This document shows positions 1,133 to 12,959 of a DNA stretch of 64,000 bases, one piece after another; positions within the stretch are counted from its first letter, which is position 1, and the number at the start of each line of letters is the position of its first letter. Source of the stretch: an uncultured Cohaesibacter sp. (lineage in GTDB: Bacteria > Pseudomonadota > Alphaproteobacteria > Rhizobiales > Cohaesibacteraceae). The stretch is taken from positions 620,001 to 684,000 of the forward strand of contig NZ_OY762905.1 in assembly GCF_963666525.1 (NCBI RefSeq). The letters are read 5' to 3'. The position numbers were made by a program, and so were the translations under genes. The notes below the pieces were generated by a model that was given only the letters and a program-made list of their open reading frames with translations, searched no databases and was not told where the DNA came from.

Positions 1133-1885
1133 ATGTCTCTACAGATCCGCGAGATCAGCAAATATTACGGCTCCAATCTGGTGCTCAATGCGGTCAGCCT
1201 TGATTTTGAGCCGGGCGAGTTCATTGCCCTGCTCGGGCCATCCGGCTCGGGCAAGACCACCCTTCTTCGCACCATCGCCGGCTTGCAGTTCGCCGAGGGC
1301 GGTTCGCTGCTGTTTGATGGCGAAGACATCACCGGGCTCGACGCCCGCAAGCGCCGCTTCGGCATGGTGTTCCAGAACTACGCCCTGTTCGAACACATGA
1401 CCGTGGCCGACAACGTGGCCTTTGGCCTCAAGGTGCGGGACCGCAAGAGCCGCCCCTCCTCGGGCGAGATCGCCAAGCGCGTCGAAACCTTGCTAGAGAT
1501 GGCCCAGATCAACCATCTGGCGGATCGTTATCCGGGCCAGTTGTCCGGCGGCCAGCGTCAGCGGGTGGCCTTGACCCGCGCTCTTGCCATCGAGCCAAGA
1601 CTGTTGCTTCTCGACGAACCCTTCAGTGCCCTGGATGCCCGCGTGCGCAAGGATCTTCGCGCCTCCCTGCGCAGCCTGCAGCGACAGGTCGGCGTCGGCG
1701 CCATCCTCGTCACCCACGATCAGGAAGAGGCCTTCGAGCTGGCCGACCGCATCGCCGTCATGGCCGATGGCCGGATCGAACAGTTCGACACTCCGGCCAA
1801 TCTGCTGAAGAACCCTTCGTCGCCCTTCGTCGCCGAATTCCTCGAAGGCTCGGAAGCCTACAACCATTCCGGCGCAGGCATTTGA
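1133..1885 (+). CDS. cysA: Sulfate/thiosulfate ABC transporter ATPase CysA (short form)
   Basis: ATP-binding subunit that drives the CysTW permease. Walker A GPSGSGKT is at 35-42, the Q-loop Gln at 81, the signature LSGGQ at 137-141, Walker B LLLLDEP at 157-163 and the switch His at 195, so the nucleotide-binding domain is complete. The protein has only 250 residues, whereas many CysA proteins have about 330-360 with a C-terminal TOBE-like regulatory domain; that domain is absent. It starts 20 bases after cysW with a GAGGAAAAAG ribosome site. It could serve a related oxyanion, but the CysT/CysW context favours sulfate. Confidence 0.88.
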   Translation: MSLQIREISKYYGSNLVLNAVSLDFEPGEFIALLGPSGSGKTTLLRTIAGLQFAEGGSLLFDGEDITGLDARKRRFGMVFQNYALFEHMTVADNVAFGLKVRDRKSRPSSGEIAKRVETLLEMAQINHLADRYPGQLSGGQRQRVALTRALAIEPRLLLLDEPFSALDARVRKDLRASLRSLQRQVGVGAILVTHDQEEAFELADRIAVMADGRIEQFDTPANLLKNPSSPFVAEFLEGSEAYNHSGAGI

Positions 1886-2080
1886 CGACCCTTGCAGTAG
1901 AGCCCCATAGGCAAACTTGCCAAGGTCAAACTCACTACGCTTAACGAAAAGTAAATAAACCATACATTTCAATATCTTAATTGGAACATATTGTCGCAGG
2001 ACGGAAATGTATAACGAATCTTAGATTTCCATGGTTACAACCATTGATGGCCAGAACCGGTTTCAATAGGGGCTGGCTGA

Positions 2081-3466
2081 GTGAACCAGAGTATGGACAT
2101 CAGCTCCGCCAGGCGCACCAGCTCGCAAGAGCAAGTCGCCAGAGACCGAGCTGATGGACGATGGAAGAAGTCAATGGAAGAAGCGTTCGTCAGTTGCCTG
2201 AGCGAATATGGCATGGCTCCGGCAAAAGCCTATCAGCAGATTACAGGGGAGTTGGCCGGAGACGGCAATCCCTATCAGGATCTGGGCAGCTTCACCGCCG
2301 TCAGGATGCAACCGGAAGCCAACCGCCTCATCTGCGACACCCTAGGCAAGAATCTCGCCAACCAGAATGAATATGGCGAAACGACCAGCATTCACAAAAA
2401 GCTCGTCGCCACCATCGCCGACCTTCTCCACGCGCCCGACCCGGCCCATGCAGCAGGCACCTCCACATCGGGCTCATCAGAAGCCTGTGCCATTGCCATG
2501 CTCATGCACAAATGGCTCTGGCAGGCCGGAGCCGAGCCGGAAAGCAGCGGGCCGCGCAGAGTCCCCAATATCGTCCTTGGTACCAACGCCCATCTGGTGT
2601 GGCGCAAGTTCGCCCTCTATCTGGGTGTCGAAGTGCGCGAAGCTCCCTTCGATGGCATCAACAGTTATCCTCTCGAGACCATGTTGTCGCTCGTAGATGA
2701 AAACACCATTTGCGTCGTCGCAGTCATGGGCTCCACCTTCTCCGGCTTTTGCGATCCGGTGAAGGAGATCAACGACGCCCTGATGGAAATGAACGCCCGC
2801 AATGGCTGGAACGTCGGCATTCATGTCGATGGCGCCATCGGTGGCTTCATCCTGCCCTTTGTAACCGACAGCCGGAAACCGGTTTGGGATTTTGCCTTGC
2901 CGCTGGTGCGCTCGATCAACCTGTCTGGCCACAAGTTCGGGCTGGTCTACCCCGGCCTCGGCTGGCTCATGCTGCGCGATCAGACAATGATCCCCGAGCA
3001 TATGAACATGACCGCCAGCTATCTCACCGGCAACACCCAATCCTATGCGATCTCCTTCTCGCGCTCGTCATCGCTGGTCATCGCCCAATATTTCAACTTC
3101 CTCCATTACGGACGGGCCGGCTATGGCGCGGTGATCGGAAAGTGCCTCAACAATGCCCGTCATGTCGCCTCCGGCCTTGAAGCCATGGGCTGTTTCGAAC
3201 TGATAAGCGACCTCACCCTGCCGGTGATCGCCTTCAGCTTCACCTCGGGTCTTGAAGGACGGGAAGCGGACTTTACCAGTGCGCTGCGCTCAAAAGGCTG
3301 GATGCTGCCCTTCTACCAGATGCCCGCAGGCATAGAGCGCAAGGCGATGCGCATTGTCATCCGCGAAGACATGTCCCGTGAGCGGCTCGAAGCACTGCTG
3401 ACAGATATCGCCGAAGCTATCGCGACGCTCTCCCCCCAGACCTGTCTCTATCGGCGGGCAGGTTAG
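2081..3466 (+). CDS. gadB: Glutamate decarboxylase (PLP-dependent, GadB-like)
   Basis: PLP enzyme converting L-glutamate to GABA and CO2 with consumption of a cytoplasmic proton. At 461 residues it matches the 466 of E. coli GadB. Visible signatures are HVDGA (248-252; Asp250 for the PLP ring nitrogen) and SGHKFGLVYPGLGW with the Schiff-base Lys285, which is diagnostic of GAD rather than other group II decarboxylases. The GTG at 2081 has AGGGG 8 bases upstream; an ATG at 2093 is an alternative. It is the first gene of an operon with an ion channel gene 10 bases downstream, then a Cache sensor and an MFS transporter. No glutamate/GABA antiporter of the GadC type is seen; the MFS protein may do that job (inference). 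Confidence 0.93.
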   Translation: MNQSMDISSARRTSSQEQVARDRADGRWKKSMEEAFVSCLSEYGMAPAKAYQQITGELAGDGNPYQDLGSFTAVRMQPEANRLICDTLGKNLANQNEYGETTSIHKKLVATIADLLHAPDPAHAAGTSTSGSSEACAIAMLMHKWLWQAGAEPESSGPRRVPNIVLGTNAHLVWRKFALYLGVEVREAPFDGINSYPLETMLSLVDENTICVVAVMGSTFSGFCDPVKEINDALMEMNARNGWNVGIHVDGAIGGFILPFVTDSRKPVWDFALPLVRSINLSGHKFGLVYPGLGWLMLRDQTMIPEHMNMTASYLTGNTQSYAISFSRSSSLVIAQYFNFLHYGRAGYGAVIGKCLNNARHVASGLEAMGCFELISDLTLPVIAFSFTSGLEGREADFTSALRSKGWMLPFYQMPAGIERKAMRIVIREDMSRERLEALLTDIAEAIATLSPQTCLYRRAG

Positions 3467-3476
3467 GAGGCCAGAC

Positions 3477-4541
3477 ATGACAACCTGTTTCCGCTCGCTT
3501 ATGTCTCATCTGGTTCAGACGCTCGTCTGCCTTTTTCTGCTGCTCGCGCCAAGCAGCGCCGCAGAGCCGACGAGCGCTCCTGCCTTCAAAGACGCCACCA
3601 AGGCCAGCGTCGCCATCAACATCAACAAGATCTACGAGTTCAACGAACTCAACGAAACCTATATCATCGATGGCTATCTGGTTGTTTCCTGGAAGGACAA
3701 AGCGCTGGCCGAGCGGATGCGATCAGGCGTGGCTCTTCCCGATATTTATGAGAATGACGCCATCGACGATCTCAAGGCCGAGGGCATCCGCATTCCCGCC
3801 ATCGAGTTCATCAATGTCGTTGGCGACAGGAGCGTTGCCAACCGGCAGGTGGTCACCAGTGCCGATGGCACCGTGCTCTACAACGAGCGCTTTCAGGCCA
3901 CCTTCTCGACCGCCATGGACTTCCGCAAGTTTCCCTTCGACACACAGAAACTTGCCATCGAGCTGGAGTCTTTCTCCTTCGACAAGACCCACTTCGAATT
4001 TGTCAATCCGAAGGTCTATCCGGAACTGGTCAATCAGGAGATGCTGGCCGAGTGGAATATCGTCGACAAACAGGTCGCCGTCACGGATCAGGACTATTCC
4101 CACCTCACCGAGGACGGCAGCAAGACCGAATTTTCCCGCTACAATCTGACGATCACCCTTGAGCGCAAGTGCGATTACTATATCTGGAACTTCATGCTGC
4201 CGCTGATCCTGATCATCACCTCATCCTGGTGCGTGTTCTGGGTTGATGATTTCCTGACCAATATCTCGATCGCCTTCACACTGATGTTGACAGTGGTTGC
4301 TTTCACCTTTCAGGCGACCAGCCTGTTGCCCAGGCTGCCCTACACAACCTTCATGGGCATGCTCACCATCCTCGGTTATCTGAGCATATTTGCCAGCATG
4401 GTGGTGATCATCGCCGCCGAGTTGCTGTCAAGAAAATCCGAAGCATTCGACAAGGCCAGGCTAATGCGGATGTCCCGCTATCTCTATCCGCTGAGCATCG
4501 TCCTCATCATTGCCTTCGAAGTCCGCTATTTCAATCTCTAG
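3477..4541 (+). CDS. Pentameric ligand-gated ion channel (prokaryotic Cys-loop receptor homologue)
   Basis: Inner-membrane channel with an extracellular (periplasmic) ligand-binding domain, relative of GLIC and ELIC. Residues 1-29 look like a signal peptide (LFLLLAPSSAAE). The beta-sandwich domain spans about 40-232 and carries the Cys-loop core FPFDTQ at 152-157 without the flanking cysteines, as in bacterial members. Four helices follow: M1 about 235-255, pore-lining M2 about 261-281, LPRLPYTTFMG at 284-294 leading into M3, and M4 about 335-350. The 354-residue length suits the family. Aligned without gaps to the GLIC M2 as remembered, the -2' Glu is replaced by Leu260. It sits 10 bases after glutamate decarboxylase, so GABA or a related amine is the obvious candidate ligand (inference). 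Confidence 0.92.
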   Translation: MTTCFRSLMSHLVQTLVCLFLLLAPSSAAEPTSAPAFKDATKASVAININKIYEFNELNETYIIDGYLVVSWKDKALAERMRSGVALPDIYENDAIDDLKAEGIRIPAIEFINVVGDRSVANRQVVTSADGTVLYNERFQATFSTAMDFRKFPFDTQKLAIELESFSFDKTHFEFVNPKVYPELVNQEMLAEWNIVDKQVAVTDQDYSHLTEDGSKTEFSRYNLTITLERKCDYYIWNFMLPLILIITSSWCVFWVDDFLTNISIAFTLMLTVVAFTFQATSLLPRLPYTTFMGMLTILGYLSIFASMVVIIAAELLSRKSEAFDKARLMRMSRYLYPLSIVLIIAFEVRYFNL

Positions 4542-4560
4542 CCCGCTGAGAGTCTGCCCC

Positions 4561-5943
4561 ATGGAAATCATCAAGACGCGCCCCAGACTTGAGGCCATCA
4601 TCCTCTCAAGCCTTGTGGTTTCCCTGATCTGCTTTCTGGCGTTTCTCATCTACAGCAAGTCCGAGGACGTGCTGGAGAAGGAAATCAAGATCGGCCTGCT
4701 CTCCAATGTCTCGGCGGCAGCAACAACCATCAACGGCGATCTGCACAGGACCTTCACGGCTCGCACAGCCCGCACCGATCCCGCCTATCTTTCCGCCATC
4801 GAACCATTGGAGAGAATCCGGCAGGCGTCCACCAACATCCGCTATATCTACACCAACATCCTCAAGGACGGTCGGGTCTATTTCGTCCTCAACCCGAGCC
4901 CCCAGAACGACAATGATGGCGATGGCCAGCCGGACCAGCCGCCAGCACTGATGGAACCCTATAACGATGCCGCACCGGAACTGATTGCGGCGCTCAAAAC
5001 CCAGAAAACGGTTGTCTCTGACCCCTATACAGACAAATGGGGCACCTTCATTAGCGCCTATGCGCCCTTCCATGATGCGGAGGGACGCTTTGTCGGCGTG
5101 CTGGGCATGGACCTGCAACTCGATGATTTCTACCAGCGGATCTATCCCATACGCCTTGCCTTTGAAAAAACCGCCTTCATCGTCATTTTCATCGGCCTGA
5201 TCATCGGCCTGCTGACTTGGCTTTCACGCAAATACACTGCCTGGCTTGCGGCAACAAACAGAGCTCTGCGCAAAGAGATGGCCCAGCACGACCTGCGCCT
5301 CGCGACAACGACCAAGGGCTTCGTTTCGCTTGTCGAAGCCATCGCCGGGCAGACGAAAGAGACAGAAACAGCCCGCTGGATCAATGGCTGGCTTGCCTAT
5401 TTCACGGTGACAGCCAACACGTCAACCGATGAAGACAATTTCGATCTGGACACCCTGCTAGCGCGAGTCGCCTCCGCCCCTGTCCTGAAGGGCGGTTTGG
5501 AGCTTTCAAGAGATGCCGCGATCCCGCAAGTCCTTTCGGGCGATCGGCTGTGCCTTGAAAAACTTATTGTCGACCTCATCAGCCGTTTTCAGACCGTTAG
5601 CAGGACTGACCGGACAACCCTTGCACTTTACCAACAGGCAGAAGGCGTGAACGACGTCCTGCTGCGCCTGACCATAAGCGCCCCCACGCTTGCCCATCCT
5701 CTCTCCGAGGCGGACAGGACACTTGCGCCAGACCTCACGGCTGCGGCAAACCACGACCCAGCAGATCTCGACTTTTTCACCTGTATCAAGACCATCCGTG
5801 CGATGGGCGGCGTGGTCCAGTGGCAGCAAACGGGGGCAGCGACAGAGCTCGTCATGGACCTCACGCTCCGCAAGTGCCGCGAAACCCCTCTTGATGAAAA
5901 TGACCTTGCCGCAGATCAGCAAACCGGGGTTGCTGCCGAATGA
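4561..5943 (+). CDS. Cache-domain membrane sensor with degenerate cytoplasmic signalling region
   Basis: Two transmembrane helices (about 11-31 and 205-221) bracket a periplasmic domain with the Cache/PDC signature WGTFISAYAPF...GRFVGVLGMDLQLDDF (160-190). An Asp-rich loop NDNDGDGQPD (116-125) resembles a calcium-binding turn. The cytoplasmic region (222-460) has a helical start like a kinase dimerisation helix, but I see no phosphoacceptor H-box and no N, G1 or G2 ATP boxes, so it is unlikely to be an active histidine kinase. The ATG at 4561, 19 bases after the channel stop, is preferred over an in-frame ATG at 4510 inside the channel gene. The last codon overlaps the MFS start (ATGA). Role within the GAD-channel operon unknown. 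Confidence 0.75.
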   Translation: MEIIKTRPRLEAIILSSLVVSLICFLAFLIYSKSEDVLEKEIKIGLLSNVSAAATTINGDLHRTFTARTARTDPAYLSAIEPLERIRQASTNIRYIYTNILKDGRVYFVLNPSPQNDNDGDGQPDQPPALMEPYNDAAPELIAALKTQKTVVSDPYTDKWGTFISAYAPFHDAEGRFVGVLGMDLQLDDFYQRIYPIRLAFEKTAFIVIFIGLIIGLLTWLSRKYTAWLAATNRALRKEMAQHDLRLATTTKGFVSLVEAIAGQTKETETARWINGWLAYFTVTANTSTDEDNFDLDTLLARVASAPVLKGGLELSRDAAIPQVLSGDRLCLEKLIVDLISRFQTVSRTDRTTLALYQQAEGVNDVLLRLTISAPTLAHPLSEADRTLAPDLTAAANHDPADLDFFTCIKTIRAMGGVVQWQQTGAATELVMDLTLRKCRETPLDENDLAADQQTGVAAE

Positions 5944-7100
5944 AACAGATCACACCCTTCATTCTGGTGCTCGCAGCCTTTGGCATTCAACTCTCCTCGG
6001 GTATCAACTACATCACCTTTCCGCTGGTGCTGCAGTCGCAAGGCGTGACCAATGCACTGATCGGCTTCGTGATGTCATGCGACATCCTTGCCCTGATTGT
6101 CTTCTCCAGCCGCATATCGACGGTCGTCAGAAAATTCGGCGTCATCAACACCATTATCATCTGCTCGATCACCCGCTTCGCCGTGGTCTATTTTCTTTCG
6201 GACAACGACATGATCATCGGCTGGATTGGCGGCATGTTTCTCTATGGCCTGACTACCAGTGCGTTGCTGGTCGTCCTGCAGACATGGCTCAACATGGTCT
6301 CGGCAGGCAAACTGAAAGGGTTGATCATGGGGCTCTATTCATCGGCCCTGTCTTTGGGTGTTGCTCTTGCCCCGATCCTGCTACGCCTTACCGACATGCA
6401 CAGCCACATGCCGTTCCTTCTGAGTGGAGCGATCTCGCTCGTGGTGCTGCTTATAATGCTGACCGTGCTCAAGAGCCGCCCCTCCTTCCATACGGACAAG
6501 AGGGCCCGCATCGGCTTCGTATTCAGGCATGCAAGGCTGATCATGCTCTCGGCTGTCGTTGGTGGCTTCTGTTTCTTCGGCCTGCCATCGTTCCTGACCA
6601 TCTATGGCATCAAGAACGGCCTCAAGGCTGAAGATGCCGCGCTGCTGCTGACCATGTTCATGCTCGGCAGCGTGACCCTCGGCATGCTGGTCAGCACGGC
6701 CTCCGCCTTCATGAACCACTATCGTCTGGTCTGCATCTGCGTCTGCACTTCGGTCTTCTGCGCCTCTTTCCTGTCGCTGGCCATCTACTCCCACCTGCTG
6801 GTGGCTCTGGGGCTGCTCTATCTGTGGGGCGGCTGTATGGGAGGCATCTACGCTCTTGGGCTGAACATCATCGGCGAACAGTTCCGCCGGGAAGACCAGA
6901 TGTCCGCCAACATGACCTATACGCTGATGGACGCCATCGGCGGCATGGTCGGGCTGTGCATCATCGGAACCAGCATGGATGTTATTGGCGCGGAGGGTCT
7001 GTCCTATACCATCGTAATTGCCGCCATGATCTATCTGATCTATCTCTTTGCGGCGCTCGGGTCTCGCCTCAACCCCGAAGGATCAGAGGCAACGGTGTGA
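5940..7100 (+). CDS. MFS transporter (12-TM, YcaD-like)
   Basis: 386 residues with about twelve hydrophobic segments in two halves, typical of a major facilitator. The second half opens near residue 200 (LIMLSAVVGGFCFFGLPSFL). The overall look recalls the YcaD-type subgroup of small MFS proteins, an impression only. It is translationally coupled to the Cache sensor by a 4-base ATGA overlap and closes the glutamate decarboxylase-channel operon. Export of GABA, exchange of glutamate for GABA, or efflux of the channel ligand are possible roles from context alone; no sequence feature fixes the substrate. Confidence 0.8.
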   Translation: MKQITPFILVLAAFGIQLSSGINYITFPLVLQSQGVTNALIGFVMSCDILALIVFSSRISTVVRKFGVINTIIICSITRFAVVYFLSDNDMIIGWIGGMFLYGLTTSALLVVLQTWLNMVSAGKLKGLIMGLYSSALSLGVALAPILLRLTDMHSHMPFLLSGAISLVVLLIMLTVLKSRPSFHTDKRARIGFVFRHARLIMLSAVVGGFCFFGLPSFLTIYGIKNGLKAEDAALLLTMFMLGSVTLGMLVSTASAFMNHYRLVCICVCTSVFCASFLSLAIYSHLLVALGLLYLWGGCMGGIYALGLNIIGEQFRREDQMSANMTYTLMDAIGGMVGLCIIGTSMDVIGAEGLSYTIVIAAMIYLIYLFAALGSRLNPEGSEATV

Positions 7101-7139
7101 TCCCATGGCAAGAAGCGGTCATTAGACCAAACAGAACAA

Positions 7140-7157
7140 AGGGGCCTTGCGGCCCCT
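7140..7157. terminator. Bidirectional terminator between MFS gene and chemoreceptor
   Basis: Perfect 7-bp stem AGGGGCC-ttgc-GGCCCCT. It lies between two convergent genes (stops at 7100 and 7193). On the minus strand it is followed by a T-rich run (TTTGTTCT); on the plus strand the T tract is weak. Confidence 0.75.
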
Positions 7158-7192
7158 CTTGCATTGCGTCTCAAATGAAACCGGCCCCTCTC

Positions 7193-8482
7193 TCAAAGAG
7201 CCTGATAGGTTTCGTCCAGTGCGCTAAGGAACTTGCCTGCATGCTGGCTGAGATCATTGGACTGGCCGCTCAGATGACCGGACCGCTCGGAGACCAGTTT
7301 CGCCGCCGCCTCGGTTTCCCGTGCTGACCGCTCGACGCCCTGAAGGGCATTGTTGATCTTCTCGGCGCCGCCAGAGGCCTGGATCACATTGTCGGCGATC
7401 TCCTTGGCTGCGGATGACTGCTGCTCAACAGCCGTGGCGATGGACGAGGAAATGTCGTTTATGTGGGTGATCGTGCCAGCAATTTTCTCGATCGCGGAAA
7501 CGGTCTGGCTGGTTGACGTCTGGATCGCCGAAACCTGCCCGGAAATTTCCTCGGTTGCCTTCGCAGTCTGGTTTGCCAGATCCTTCACCTCTGCTGCCAC
7601 GACAGCAAAACCCCGCCCGGCTTCACCCGCACGTGCCGCCTCGATCGTGGCGTTGAGGGCCAGCAGGTTGGTCTGTTCGGCAATTTCCTGAATGAGGCGG
7701 ATGACATCGCCGATGCGGCTTGCCGATGTAGCCAGTTCGCTGACCACATTGGTCGTTGCCTCTGCCTGTCCCGATGCCTCATGCACCACCTGCGTGGAGG
7801 TTGAAACCTGTCGCCCAATCTCTTCGATGGATGCGGAAAGCTCTTCGGTTGCGGCCTGAACAGAGCGCATGTTCTCAACGGTCTGATTGGTCAGTGAGAA
7901 CAGAGCCGAGGTTTCGCCACTGGTACGGCGGGCATCCCCGATCATCTGCTCGGCCGTGCCCTGCAGGTCACCTGCGGCTGTCTCGATGGACTGGGCCACA
8001 TTGCCGACACTGTTCTGGAAGGTTCCGGACAGAGCCTGAAACTTGCGGTTCCGGTTGAAGGCGGCTTCGCTGTTTTCGGCATCCTGCAAGACGGCACAGG
8101 CATAGGGCACGCCATCGATCACGGCGATTGACACGTCGGTCAGCGCACCAAAACTGCCGCCATCGGCCTTGTTGTAGATGGAGCGGCCAGACCACTTGCC
8201 ACTTTTCCTGATCGCTTCCTCGACCATCCGGGTCATCTCCGACACCGGTTTGCTGCCATATTGTTCCTTGGCCAGAAGTTGTTCAACCGGACGGCTCTGA
8301 ACCGCCTGAAGAGAAGCAAAGCCGGAAGCCCTCAGAAAAGCCTTGTTGGCATAGACAATGCCTTCGCGACCGGGCGCCAGGCAATTGATATAAATTCCGG
8401 ATGGAGATCCTTCCATGGCAACCGCCACCAGATCATTCATGGAAGGTCCGGTTTCTTCCTTCTTTTTCCCTAGCCCAAACAT
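7193..8482 (-). CDS. Soluble methyl-accepting chemotaxis protein with N-terminal PAS domain
   Basis: 429 residues with no transmembrane helix: a PAS-like domain at about 20-137 followed by a long coiled-coil MCP signalling domain. The hairpin tip that binds CheA/CheW is present ([19 protein letters not shown]). It is probably a cytoplasmic energy, redox or metabolite receptor feeding the chemotaxis kinase. The start at 8482 is chosen because GGGAGT lies 8 bases upstream; a longer frame to 8533 lacks such a site. No CheR-docking pentapeptide is visible at the C-terminus. No other chemotaxis genes are nearby, so it acts in trans. Confidence 0.9.
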
Positions 8483-9150
8483 CGCTCTACTCCCGCGCAA
8501 CCGCGCACAATCGGATTGTTTGGGAGCAACCATGCAACTGCACCATTTGACAACAGGTTAACCATGAAGTCGCAAGTTTTGCGATAAACAGAAAAGTACA
8601 AAACCATGCCGCGCGTTCTTGACGCAGCGAGTTTTGGCAAGAAAGAGAAAGTCTGAAAGTGATGCCACGAAGCGTCGACACACCCAACGGCAGCGGAAAT
8701 ATGGCAAGGAAAGTGGCTCCGACCAAACGTATCGATGTTTACCCGGCGCTGATAACACGATGGGGTGCACCCGGCACTCTCGCAAAGCAAGAGCATCAAA
8801 GAAGCACCCCATCTCCAGTCCCCCCCACGGGAACTCTTAAATCCTGATCCGGCCTTGAAGACCGGCTTCACACACGGCTTCTCCATAAGCCAGCCGGCGC
8901 GGCACAAATTTGCAAAACCCACTTTTCTGCAAATTCAGCTAGGATTATTAGCAAAAGAAGGTCAACCGCACTAGTACATTTAACAATGCAACTTTAACAT
9001 AGAATTTGTGCAAAGCGTCCCAAAAGGACAGAGACTGATGAAATTTCAGCCATTTGGGCAGATATTATGCGGATCCATGCCTGCTTAGAAAGCCGTGCAA
9101 AGATGGAGGGAAATGGAGATCGCTATCAGCAGACCAGACGCCGAAGAGCC
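8483..9150. other. Intergenic region without a supported gene; contains a 10-bp inverted repeat
   Basis: No reading frame here has convincing composition or a ribosome site. Frames reading out of the chemoreceptor start (for example to 8922 on the minus strand) are Cys- and Arg-rich and look non-coding. The notable element is a perfect 10-bp inverted repeat GATGGGGTGC / GCACCCCATC (8759-8768 and 8804-8813) around 35 bases. The right part (8930-9065) is AT-rich. Confidence 0.5.
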
Positions 9151-11008: not shown

Positions 11009-12043
11009 TTATGCGTGATCCTGCCACCCCACGTCATGGAAGCTGATTTGCGGTTCCTGAATGATCTGTGACACTCCGGTCGCGCTTCCATCAAGGATGG
11101 ATAGCAGGGTCTGCCCCATCAGAACCCCGGCATTTTCGACATTTTCATACATCCGGTCGAGATCAGGTGAGATCTGCTCCAGAATGGCGTTGTTCGTCTT
11201 GACCACTGCCTGATAATGCACCTTGCGCCTCAGACCGACACTGCGCAAGCCGGCATTCAGCGCCAGATAGCTCGCTTCGCCCGGAAAGATGAAGCCATGC
11301 CGGTCCGTATCCTTGCGATCAGACAGCAGGTCCACGGCCCACGAGCGGATGGCCTCCAGATTGGAATCAAGCGTCACCACATCCGGGATGACATAATCAA
11401 GCCCCCCTTCGCGCACAGCCCGCATGAAGCCGTAGCGCAGATGCTGGTGAAAGGTGAAGCCTTCGGGCGGCAGGACGATGGACAGCCGGTTGCAGCCGAT
11501 CGCAGCGAGCCGGTTAGCCGCCTGATAGGCAAAGGCCTCGTTGTCGAAATCGACATAATTGTGCTGCTGGGAAAAATCCGTCCTGCCATGACTGATGAAG
11601 GGAAAGTTGTTTTCCATCAGAAAGCGGATGCGCTCATCGAAGTTGCGGGTCCGCGTCAACACCAGCCCGTCCGCCAGACCGTTCCGCACCACATGCTTGA
11701 TCGGCGCCATTTCGTCGCCGTTGGCAAACATCGGCGTCACAATGAGATGATAGCCCGTACCGGCCAGCGACCGGGTCAGGCCCTCGATCATGCTGTTGCC
11801 AAAACCAAAAAGCTCGTCATGGGGGCTCAGTATCAGGCCGATCACCCGTGTCTTGCCGGTTCTGAGGCGCTGGGCGGCCCGGTCCGGCACATAGCCGATT
11901 TCTTCAGCGACCTTTGCCACCTGCAGCCGTGTGGCTTCGGCGATCTTGGGGTCTCCCTTGAGCGCACGGGATACGGTGGTCACCGCCAGTCCCATGATTT
12001 GCGCAATGGTTTTCTGTGTTGGCTTGCTAGACCCTTGCTGCAT
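11009..12043 (-). CDS. LacI-family transcriptional regulator
   Basis: 344 residues. The N-terminal LacI helix-turn-helix is at about 9-55 (TIAQIMGLAVTTVSRALKG, hinge GYVPDRAAQRLRTGKT), followed by a periplasmic-binding-protein-like effector domain. The start at 12043 has AGGGA 6 bases upstream; a longer frame to 12064 has no ribosome site. It is first in a two-gene operon with the PfkB kinase and divergent from D-lyxose isomerase. It probably represses both arms from the operator at 12171-12184 and responds to a sugar or sugar phosphate of this pathway (inference). Confidence 0.92.
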   Translation of the reverse strand: MQQGSSKPTQKTIAQIMGLAVTTVSRALKGDPKIAEATRLQVAKVAEEIGYVPDRAAQRLRTGKTRVIGLILSPHDELFGFGNSMIEGLTRSLAGTGYHLIVTPMFANGDEMAPIKHVVRNGLADGLVLTRTRNFDERIRFLMENNFPFISHGRTDFSQQHNYVDFDNEAFAYQAANRLAAIGCNRLSIVLPPEGFTFHQHLRYGFMRAVREGGLDYVIPDVVTLDSNLEAIRSWAVDLLSDRKDTDRHGFIFPGEASYLALNAGLRSVGLRRKVHYQAVVKTNNAILEQISPDLDRMYENVENAGVLMGQTLLSILDGSATGVSQIIQEPQISFHDVGWQDHA

Positions 12044-12170
12044 GAGATCCCTTTGACAACGCATGGAAACGGGACGACCGAAAATTAATACGTAACTTTC
12101 CAGTCAGGCGGGAATCCTAGTTCATTATTCCGCCGATTACAAACAGTTAGACGCTTATCCCACCTATCTA

Positions 12171-12184
12171 TTGTAACGATACAA
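12171..12184. promoter_or_regulatory. Candidate LacI-family operator
   Basis: TTGTAACGATACAA, a near-perfect palindrome (13 of 14 positions symmetric apart from one base pair) with the central CG typical of LacI-family sites. It lies in the 235-bp divergent region between the LacI gene and the D-lyxose isomerase gene. Confidence 0.6.
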
Positions 12185-12278
12185 AGTTGGCGCCGATTCA
12201 ACTATACTACGGCCAATTCTGCAATGATCAACCGACCATCCTTGTTTCCGAAATCCTTGAGTTCAGAGAGCTGAGTCC

Positions 12279-12959
12279 ATGAAACGTTCCCACGTCAATG
12301 AAATTCTGAAAGAAAGCGACGCCTTCATCCGTTCATTTGGTTATATACTCCCCCCCTTCGCCTATCTCTCGCCGGAGGAAATGCAGGCCACCGACCACAG
12401 CCTCTTCGTGGAACGGGCAATGGGTTGGGACATCACCGACTACGGCCAGGAAAAATTCGATGAGCTGGGACTGTTTCTCTTCACGGTCCGCAACGGCATA
12501 GCCGCTGACCTGAAGAAGGGCACCGGCATGCTCTATGCCGAAAAGATCATGATCAGTCGCGACATGCAGATTTCACCAATGCACCGCCACTATATCAAGG
12601 CGGAAGACATCATCAACCGCGGTGGCGGCAAGCTGGTACTGGAGCTCTGGGCCCCCGATGAAGAAGGCAAGATCGACCGGCAAAGCGATGTCACGGTCCC
12701 CATCGACGGCCGCTTGCGCACCTTCTCGGCCGGAAGCCGGGTTCGTCTGGATCCGGGCGAAAGCATCACCCTTATGCCCGGTGTCTGGCATTCCTTCTGG
12801 GGCGAGGAAGGCGACGTTCTCATCGGTGAGGTTTCCACCGTCAATGATGACCGTACCGACAACTGGTTCGAGCTCGACATCGGCCGCTTCTCCAATATCG
12901 AGGAAGACGAAGCGCCCGCCCATCTGCTGGTTTCCGACTATGACACCTATCTGAGCTGA
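12279..12959 (+). CDS. D-lyxose ketol-isomerase (cupin sugar isomerase)
   Basis: 226-residue single-cupin enzyme of the D-lyxose isomerase family, which interconverts D-lyxose/D-xylulose and D-mannose/D-fructose with a divalent metal. Metal ligands are visible as MHRHYIKAED (His102, His104, Glu109) and GVWHSFWGE (His171). Length matches the family. It is divergent from a LacI regulator and PfkB kinase, which together make an isomerase-kinase pair able to feed mannose or lyxose into central metabolism. The family assignment is strong; the physiological sugar is uncertain. No sugar transporter is adjacent. Confidence 0.9.
   Translation: MKRSHVNEILKESDAFIRSFGYILPPFAYLSPEEMQATDHSLFVERAMGWDITDYGQEKFDELGLFLFTVRNGIAADLKKGTGMLYAEKIMISRDMQISPMHRHYIKAEDIINRGGGKLVLELWAPDEEGKIDRQSDVTVPIDGRLRTFSAGSRVRLDPGESITLMPGVWHSFWGEEGDVLIGEVSTVNDDRTDNWFELDIGRFSNIEEDEAPAHLLVSDYDTYLS

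Follow-up and report, generated by a model that had tools for sequence, protein, structure and literature searches.

An uncultured Cohaesibacter sp. carries a four-gene unit in which a glutamate decarboxylase (GAD) stands next to a pentameric ligand-gated ion channel (pLGIC) of the ELIC type, followed by a Cache-domain membrane protein and a major facilitator superfamily (MFS) transporter. The unit lies in a 64,000-nucleotide stretch of contig NZ_OY762905.1 (the window, meaning the whole stretch of DNA analysed), within a genome of 5.18 Mb. Decarboxylase, channel, Cache and MFS genes keep the same order and strand in all 12 genomes in which an ELIC-type channel was found (four Cohaesibacter and eight enterobacterial), whereas the enzyme, judged by sequence, is exchanged between the two branches: GAD-family in Cohaesibacter and non-GAD-like in the enterobacteria. 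Our best reading, with a probability of about 0.6, is a self-contained amine cassette in which the cell's own amine would be the signal for the channel.

Four plus-strand open reading frames, separated by 10, 19 and −4 bases, were found where an earlier note on this DNA had placed them:

1886..2080, + strand: AT-rich leader, presumed promoter region (GC 0.42), between an ATP-binding cassette (ABC) transporter gene and GAD
2081..3466, + strand: pyridoxal phosphate (PLP) glutamate decarboxylase, 461 aa (TIGR01788; GadB catalytic residues kept)
3477..4541, + strand: ELIC-type pentameric ligand-gated ion channel subunit, 354 aa (phmmer, clade, pocket and pore residues)
4561..5943, + strand: membrane protein with a Cache/PDC half and a degenerate histidine-kinase-like half, 460 aa (Pfam, conservation, predicted fold)
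5940..7100, + strand: MFS transporter, 386 aa (MFS_1; 4-base overlap with the end of the preceding gene)

The annotated start of GAD is a GTG at 2081, with an ATG at 2093 as a possible alternative. From the spacing we infer a single transcript for all four genes. A consensus-type promoter scan of 1800-7400 returned no promoter-like site on the + strand, and no shared motif was evident upstream of the cassette when four Cohaesibacter genomes were compared.

Distribution of the unit

The recurrence of one gene order in 12/12 genomes goes beyond chance. Lack of a conserved neighbourhood had been set in the earlier note as one refutation of a functional cassette, and the idea survived, with the unit kept in two bacterial classes. 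In an order-level search of 397 genomes, the 36 genomes with a match besides the four Cohaesibacter held distant pLGICs only, none better than E 1e-28. ELIC-type channels were present in 4/295 genomes of an enterobacterial family sample and in 7/9 genomes of the genus to which three of these belong; that genus is probably Dickeya, since the channel at locus L053 is nearly identical to the ELIC sequence in the PDB. The class, phylum and Gammaproteobacteria were searched as samples, and ELIC-type channels may occur elsewhere: matches came from 2/289 genomes of the class (1e-20; the window's own and G562) and 4/398 of the phylum (1e-15; the window's own, G041, G689 and G813), only the window's own being of ELIC type, and from two of 185 Gammaproteobacteria (1e-20; 28 and 29% identical), neither of ELIC type. 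A contig search across genomes gave two loci, both from Cohaesibacter.

Adjacency to a decarboxylase separates ELIC-type channels from other pLGICs. A PF00282 gene adjoins the channel in 7/7 ELIC-type genomes and in 0/30 other pLGIC genomes, among which the nearest PF00282 match on the same contig lies ~290 kb from the channel. These 37 genomes exclude nine with weak matches (G025, G032, G037, G108, G135, G200, G212, G308 and G374), which belong to the set of 40 pLGIC genomes, and four of the eight enterobacterial genomes, which were found later; the window's genome was handled separately. PF00282 itself was tested in 4/8 enterobacterial genomes, the other four being covered by similarity to one of them. 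At 32 other pLGIC places, nine covered as longer stretches and the rest with ~1.5 kb flanks, neither the Cache-half profile nor either decarboxylase profile gave a match. Against specificity of the cassette, genome G041 has an MFS gene (profile match 5e-12) directly upstream of a distant pLGIC (L055:5075-6340 and 6640-7716); a second distant pLGIC of this genome lies on another contig.

At the two enterobacterial loci scanned for neighbours, the cassette has a pectate lyase gene on one side and a gene matching GH19 chitinase on the other (L050:4948-6099 and 11336-12052; L051:5529-6656 and 12167-12793).

An ELIC-type channel

The second gene encodes a channel of the neurotransmitter-receptor type, as the earlier note had proposed. 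It matches Neur_chan_LBD at 56.4 bits (cut-off 26), aligns with ELIC over residues 41-353 (phmmer, E about 1e-71) and is ~40% identical to ELIC-type channels; by eye, its N-terminus is signal-peptide-like. The 12 ELIC-type channels form one clade (support 100/99), split into four Cohaesibacter and eight enterobacterial members, in a tree in which several outside branches are long. Within the genus, the window's channel is 97% identical to that of Cohaesibacter haloalkalitolerans and 75% to that of C. marisflavi. It scores below the cut-offs of both NCBIfam models (LGIC_1, 122.9 bits versus 500; LIC, 117.8 versus 280.2), in a scan whose sequences did not include ELIC itself.

Residues are given in full-length ELIC numbering; Y175, F188 and E230 appear as 174, 187 and 229 in PMC3119659. 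Ten positions (Y38, V40, N60, P74, E77, N103, E131, F133, Y175 and L178) are invariant in 12/12 channels, and F188 is kept in 11, with Tyr in the remaining one. The amine-site residues named in PMC3119659 (Y38, N103, E131, F133, Y175 and F188) are all present in the four Cohaesibacter channels.

A decarboxylase exchanged between branches

The window enzyme can be assigned as a glutamate decarboxylase on its family score and kept catalytic residues, in agreement with the earlier note, and GABA (γ-aminobutyric acid) is its predicted product. It scores 415.3 bits on TIGR01788, above the curated equivalog cut-off of 380.4 for this NCBI family model. Cohaesibacter GAD is 34% identical to E. coli GadB, and 4/4 Cohaesibacter enzymes retain K276 (the PLP lysine), H275, D243, T212, S126, S127 and R422 of GadB, residues to which we assign catalytic roles. 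All four also share the substitutions T62S, D86N and Q163H relative to GadB.

Enterobacterial cassette decarboxylases look different. Three of the eight were scanned against NCBIfam: against a GAD-model cut-off of 380, two reached 21 and 24 bits and the third had no match. Their best match was histidine decarboxylase, likewise below its cut-off. For the two searched against the PDB (of eight), the nearest entry was the L-methionine decarboxylase 7cif (E 7e-67 and 3e-65), followed by serine and histidine decarboxylases. The remaining seven enterobacterial enzymes are 64-88% identical to the L051 enzyme. In the enzyme at L053:9416-10783, the presumed PLP lysine lies in SPYKW, compared with SGHKW in L-methionine decarboxylase, so that Tyr replaces the usual His preceding the lysine.

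The other partners remain recognizably the same across the branches (channel ~40% identical, Cache sensor half 48-53%, MFS 42-44%). Because the enzyme family differs while these families stay, what stays next to the channel seems to be a decarboxylase as such and no specific one.

Cache protein and transporter

The third product, previously described as a Cache sensor, has a Cache/PDC half (MCP-like_PDC_1, 30.8 bits, cut-off 27, in Pfam), but that description was too narrow, as the second half is histidine-kinase-like in predicted fold. The sensor half (residues ~1-240) is conserved, and a DxDxDGxxD loop within it (window 4909-4935, residues 117-125) varies at a single residue across the 12 aligned Cache proteins; we take it to resemble calcium-binding loops. 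In the alignment, the starts of L070 and L071 are set too far upstream, and the parts used are unaffected. The AlphaFold model gives the sensor half low confidence (45-66 in 10-residue blocks) and predicts a histidine-kinase-like fold for residues ~250-440. Pfam returned no HATPase match in this protein at 1e-3. By eye, a His occupies the H-box place in 2/4 Cohaesibacter proteins and N and G boxes are not seen, while no recognizable kinase half is seen in the aligned enterobacterial versions. The kinase-like half looks degenerate and, from its appearance, catalytically dead.

The fourth product is an MFS protein, as the earlier note had it (MFS_1, 109.6 bits, cut-off 33.4); the PDB held no relative of it at E 0.01.

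Genomic placement

The ABC ATPase gene upstream of the cassette was found in 7/17 genomes searched, 16 of them from the genus and one from the family. A gene for a methyl-accepting chemotaxis protein (MCP) directly follows it in five of the seven, and the ~1.5 kb covered in the other two held no MCP match. The cassette sits between these two genes in the window and in G149, and two of the five contiguous-site genomes hold it elsewhere. Since the site is contiguous in relatives and the cassette is elsewhere in two of them, the unit seems to have been moved or lost as one piece.

In the window, the MCP gene is convergent with the cassette (7193-8533, − strand; MCP signalling domain and PAS match), and a terminator-like hairpin lies at 7159-7138 on the strand of that gene. 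Two ideas about origin were discarded. Base composition gave no foreign signal, with a cassette GC of 0.568 against 0.586 for the window and GC at third codon positions (0.685-0.775) inside the neighbours' range of 0.66-0.80. As for a virus or plasmid source, viral contigs held no relative, and one distant Legionella plasmid channel was 23% identical.

Proposed mechanism and alternatives

As a self-contained amine cassette, the unit would work as follows, in a proposal that covers the activities of all four proteins, the direction of transport, the Cache ligand and the match between enzyme product and channel ligand. The cytosolic PLP decarboxylase would produce a small primary amine (in this case GABA, from glutamate), which the MFS carrier would take through the inner membrane, probably in the outward direction. 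The channel, its ligand-binding domain in the periplasm, would open at high micromolar to millimolar amine and let ions flow. The Cache protein may sense either that amine or calcium; its role is probably to tune the channel, not to phosphorylate a regulator. In this way the cell would read the build-up of its own or a neighbour's amine, and the unit may conceivably be host-directed, as the earlier note also suggested.

ELIC itself is opened by primary amines, with half-maximal effective concentrations (EC50) of 0.365 mM for cysteamine, 0.446 mM for aminopropane and 2.4 mM for GABA (PMC3119659); a second GABA value is 1.6 mM (PMC3430861). Several points weigh against the self-contained amine cassette, and this pharmacology is the first: GABA is among the weaker ELIC agonists, effective only at the millimolar level (PMC3119659). 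Two pocket residues, unchanged in 8/8 enterobacterial channels, differ in 4/4 Cohaesibacter channels (F19 to Asn, R91 to Gln); in ELIC, the cysteamine EC50 rises to more than 10 mM with F19A and falls fourfold with R91A (PMC3119659), so GABA gating is not transferable from ELIC. Among the listed pocket positions we saw no basic residue to hold a carboxylate. In the pore, the intermediate charge ring, acidic in cation-selective members (E230; E229 in PMC3119659), has Glu in 8/8 enterobacterial channels and Thr in 4/4 Cohaesibacter channels, so the latter may or may not be cation-selective; Q233 is likewise Ser in 4/4 Cohaesibacter channels. With an ELIC-type channel in 4/18 genomes of the genus, the unit is not a core function. 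Import by the MFS protein would fit as well as export. The GAD substrate is itself a prediction, because D86N changes a GadB residue that we take to be part of the distal carboxylate site.

The two branches show fixed differences at 41 extracellular-domain positions, and comparison of the sequences suggests that pocket change follows the enzyme. A bolder version of the self-contained amine cassette, which we hold tentatively and think more doubtful than probable, is that the decarboxylase sets and can swap the ligand while the pocket shifts along with it, the Cache pseudo-kinase being an accessory subunit of the channel, so that these would be receptors for a self-made, secreted amine. The amine would perhaps be GABA in Cohaesibacter and an alkyl- or methylthioalkyl-amine in Dickeya-like bacteria, and the pseudo-kinase could be likened, by analogy, to the Cache-bearing alpha2-delta of animal calcium channels.

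A response to foreign amines is the strongest alternative, although we consider it unlikely. Here the channel and Cache protein would detect algal, animal or plant amines, the MFS carrier would import amines or a precursor, and the decarboxylase would belong to the metabolism of these compounds, not to the making of a signal. The genomic evidence is the same as for the self-contained amine cassette and either direction of MFS transport fits; the cassette is near pectate lyase genes in two enterobacterial loci, and ELIC has been linked to the breakdown of amino acids, and the products formed from them, in plant roots (PMC3119659). However, a decarboxylase produces amines rather than consuming them, and the cassette lacks an amine-degrading enzyme.

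An acid- or ion-stress device, with GAD using protons, the channel adjusting cation flux and membrane potential, and GABA as a by-product, seems improbable. In E. coli, GAD serves in acid stress and gadB adjoins gadC, and the PDB labels GLIC, a pLGIC relative, as proton-gated. Yet GadC (TIGR00910) had no match at 1e-3 in 4/4 Cohaesibacter genomes, with the E. coli control found, and only sub-cut-off matches in four enterobacterial genomes; nor is the C-terminus of GadB kept. The lack of a GadC match in these Cohaesibacter genomes disfavours an E. coli-type form of the acid-stress variant that the earlier note had also raised. Because the enterobacterial cassette uses another decarboxylase, the conserved feature is not GAD chemistry, which also counts against this explanation.

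Joint inheritance without joint function, as one mobile piece whose channel ligand is unrelated to the enzyme, would suit the contiguous site seen in 5/7 genomes that have the flanking ABC gene, the unit lying elsewhere in two of the five. It is very improbable given that order is kept in 12/12 genomes over two classes despite the change of enzyme family, and that one would not expect a mere co-travelling piece to pick up a decarboxylase again in that position.

Significance

According to a 2016 survey, none of the pLGICs of unicellular organisms has a known biological role (PMC4795631), while ELIC and GLIC have many solved structures in the PDB. A decarboxylase that is kept but swapped turns the question of ELIC function into a direct test, each enzyme's product against its adjacent channel. 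With its changed pocket and pore, the Cohaesibacter channel offers a naturally occurring relative of ELIC. If true, the GABA version of the cassette would be a signalling unit in which a bacterium both makes GABA and gates a channel with it.

Comparison with known systems

Zimmermann and Dutzler (2011) placed the ELIC gene in one operon with an annotated glutamate decarboxylase gene and counted GABA among its likely natural ligands (PMC3119659). The earlier note's statement that no system of such composition had been described was therefore too strong. The legend of Figure 6A in that paper says that the ORFs of the ELIC operon are drawn, so the figure may already include the MFS and Cache genes. 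As the enterobacterial enzymes scanned do not score as GAD, the annotation cited in 2011 is unsupported there and supported for Cohaesibacter, and the published hint of GABA as ELIC's natural ligand is questioned. Besides PMC3119659, no decarboxylase-channel-Cache-MFS unit was found described in the literature searched, whose coverage leaves out most subscription journals, and the same search found no report of ligand-gated channels in Cohaesibacter. New here are the conserved four-gene unit, the enzyme exchange, the finding that one branch has an enzyme of the GAD family, and with these a corrected account of ELIC. Also new are the unit's position in a site that relatives have uninterrupted and the pocket and pore changes of the Cohaesibacter channels.

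Tasneem et al. (2004) described pLGICs that share predicted operons with genes for Cache or periplasmic-binding proteins, or that are fused to Cache (PMC549065); theirs is a stand-alone Cache gene in Rhodopseudomonas, and the word 'decarboxylase' is absent from the main text. Sensor histidine kinases with Cache/PDC domains share the predicted kinase fold of the cassette protein, which falls short of them in phospho-acceptor His and ATP-site motifs. The GadB/GadC acid-resistance system of E. coli has a PLP glutamate decarboxylase in common with the cassette, which has an MFS protein, a channel and a Cache protein and no GadC match. Among the closest known systems is the ELIC operon of Erwinia chrysanthemi (Dickeya dadantii), whose channel falls in the same clade and has a PF00282 decarboxylase gene immediately upstream and homologous Cache and MFS genes downstream in 8/8 enterobacterial genomes; Cohaesibacter differs from it in its GAD-family enzyme and, in 4/4 channels, in the pocket changes F19N and R91Q and the pore change E229T (numbering of the 2011 paper).

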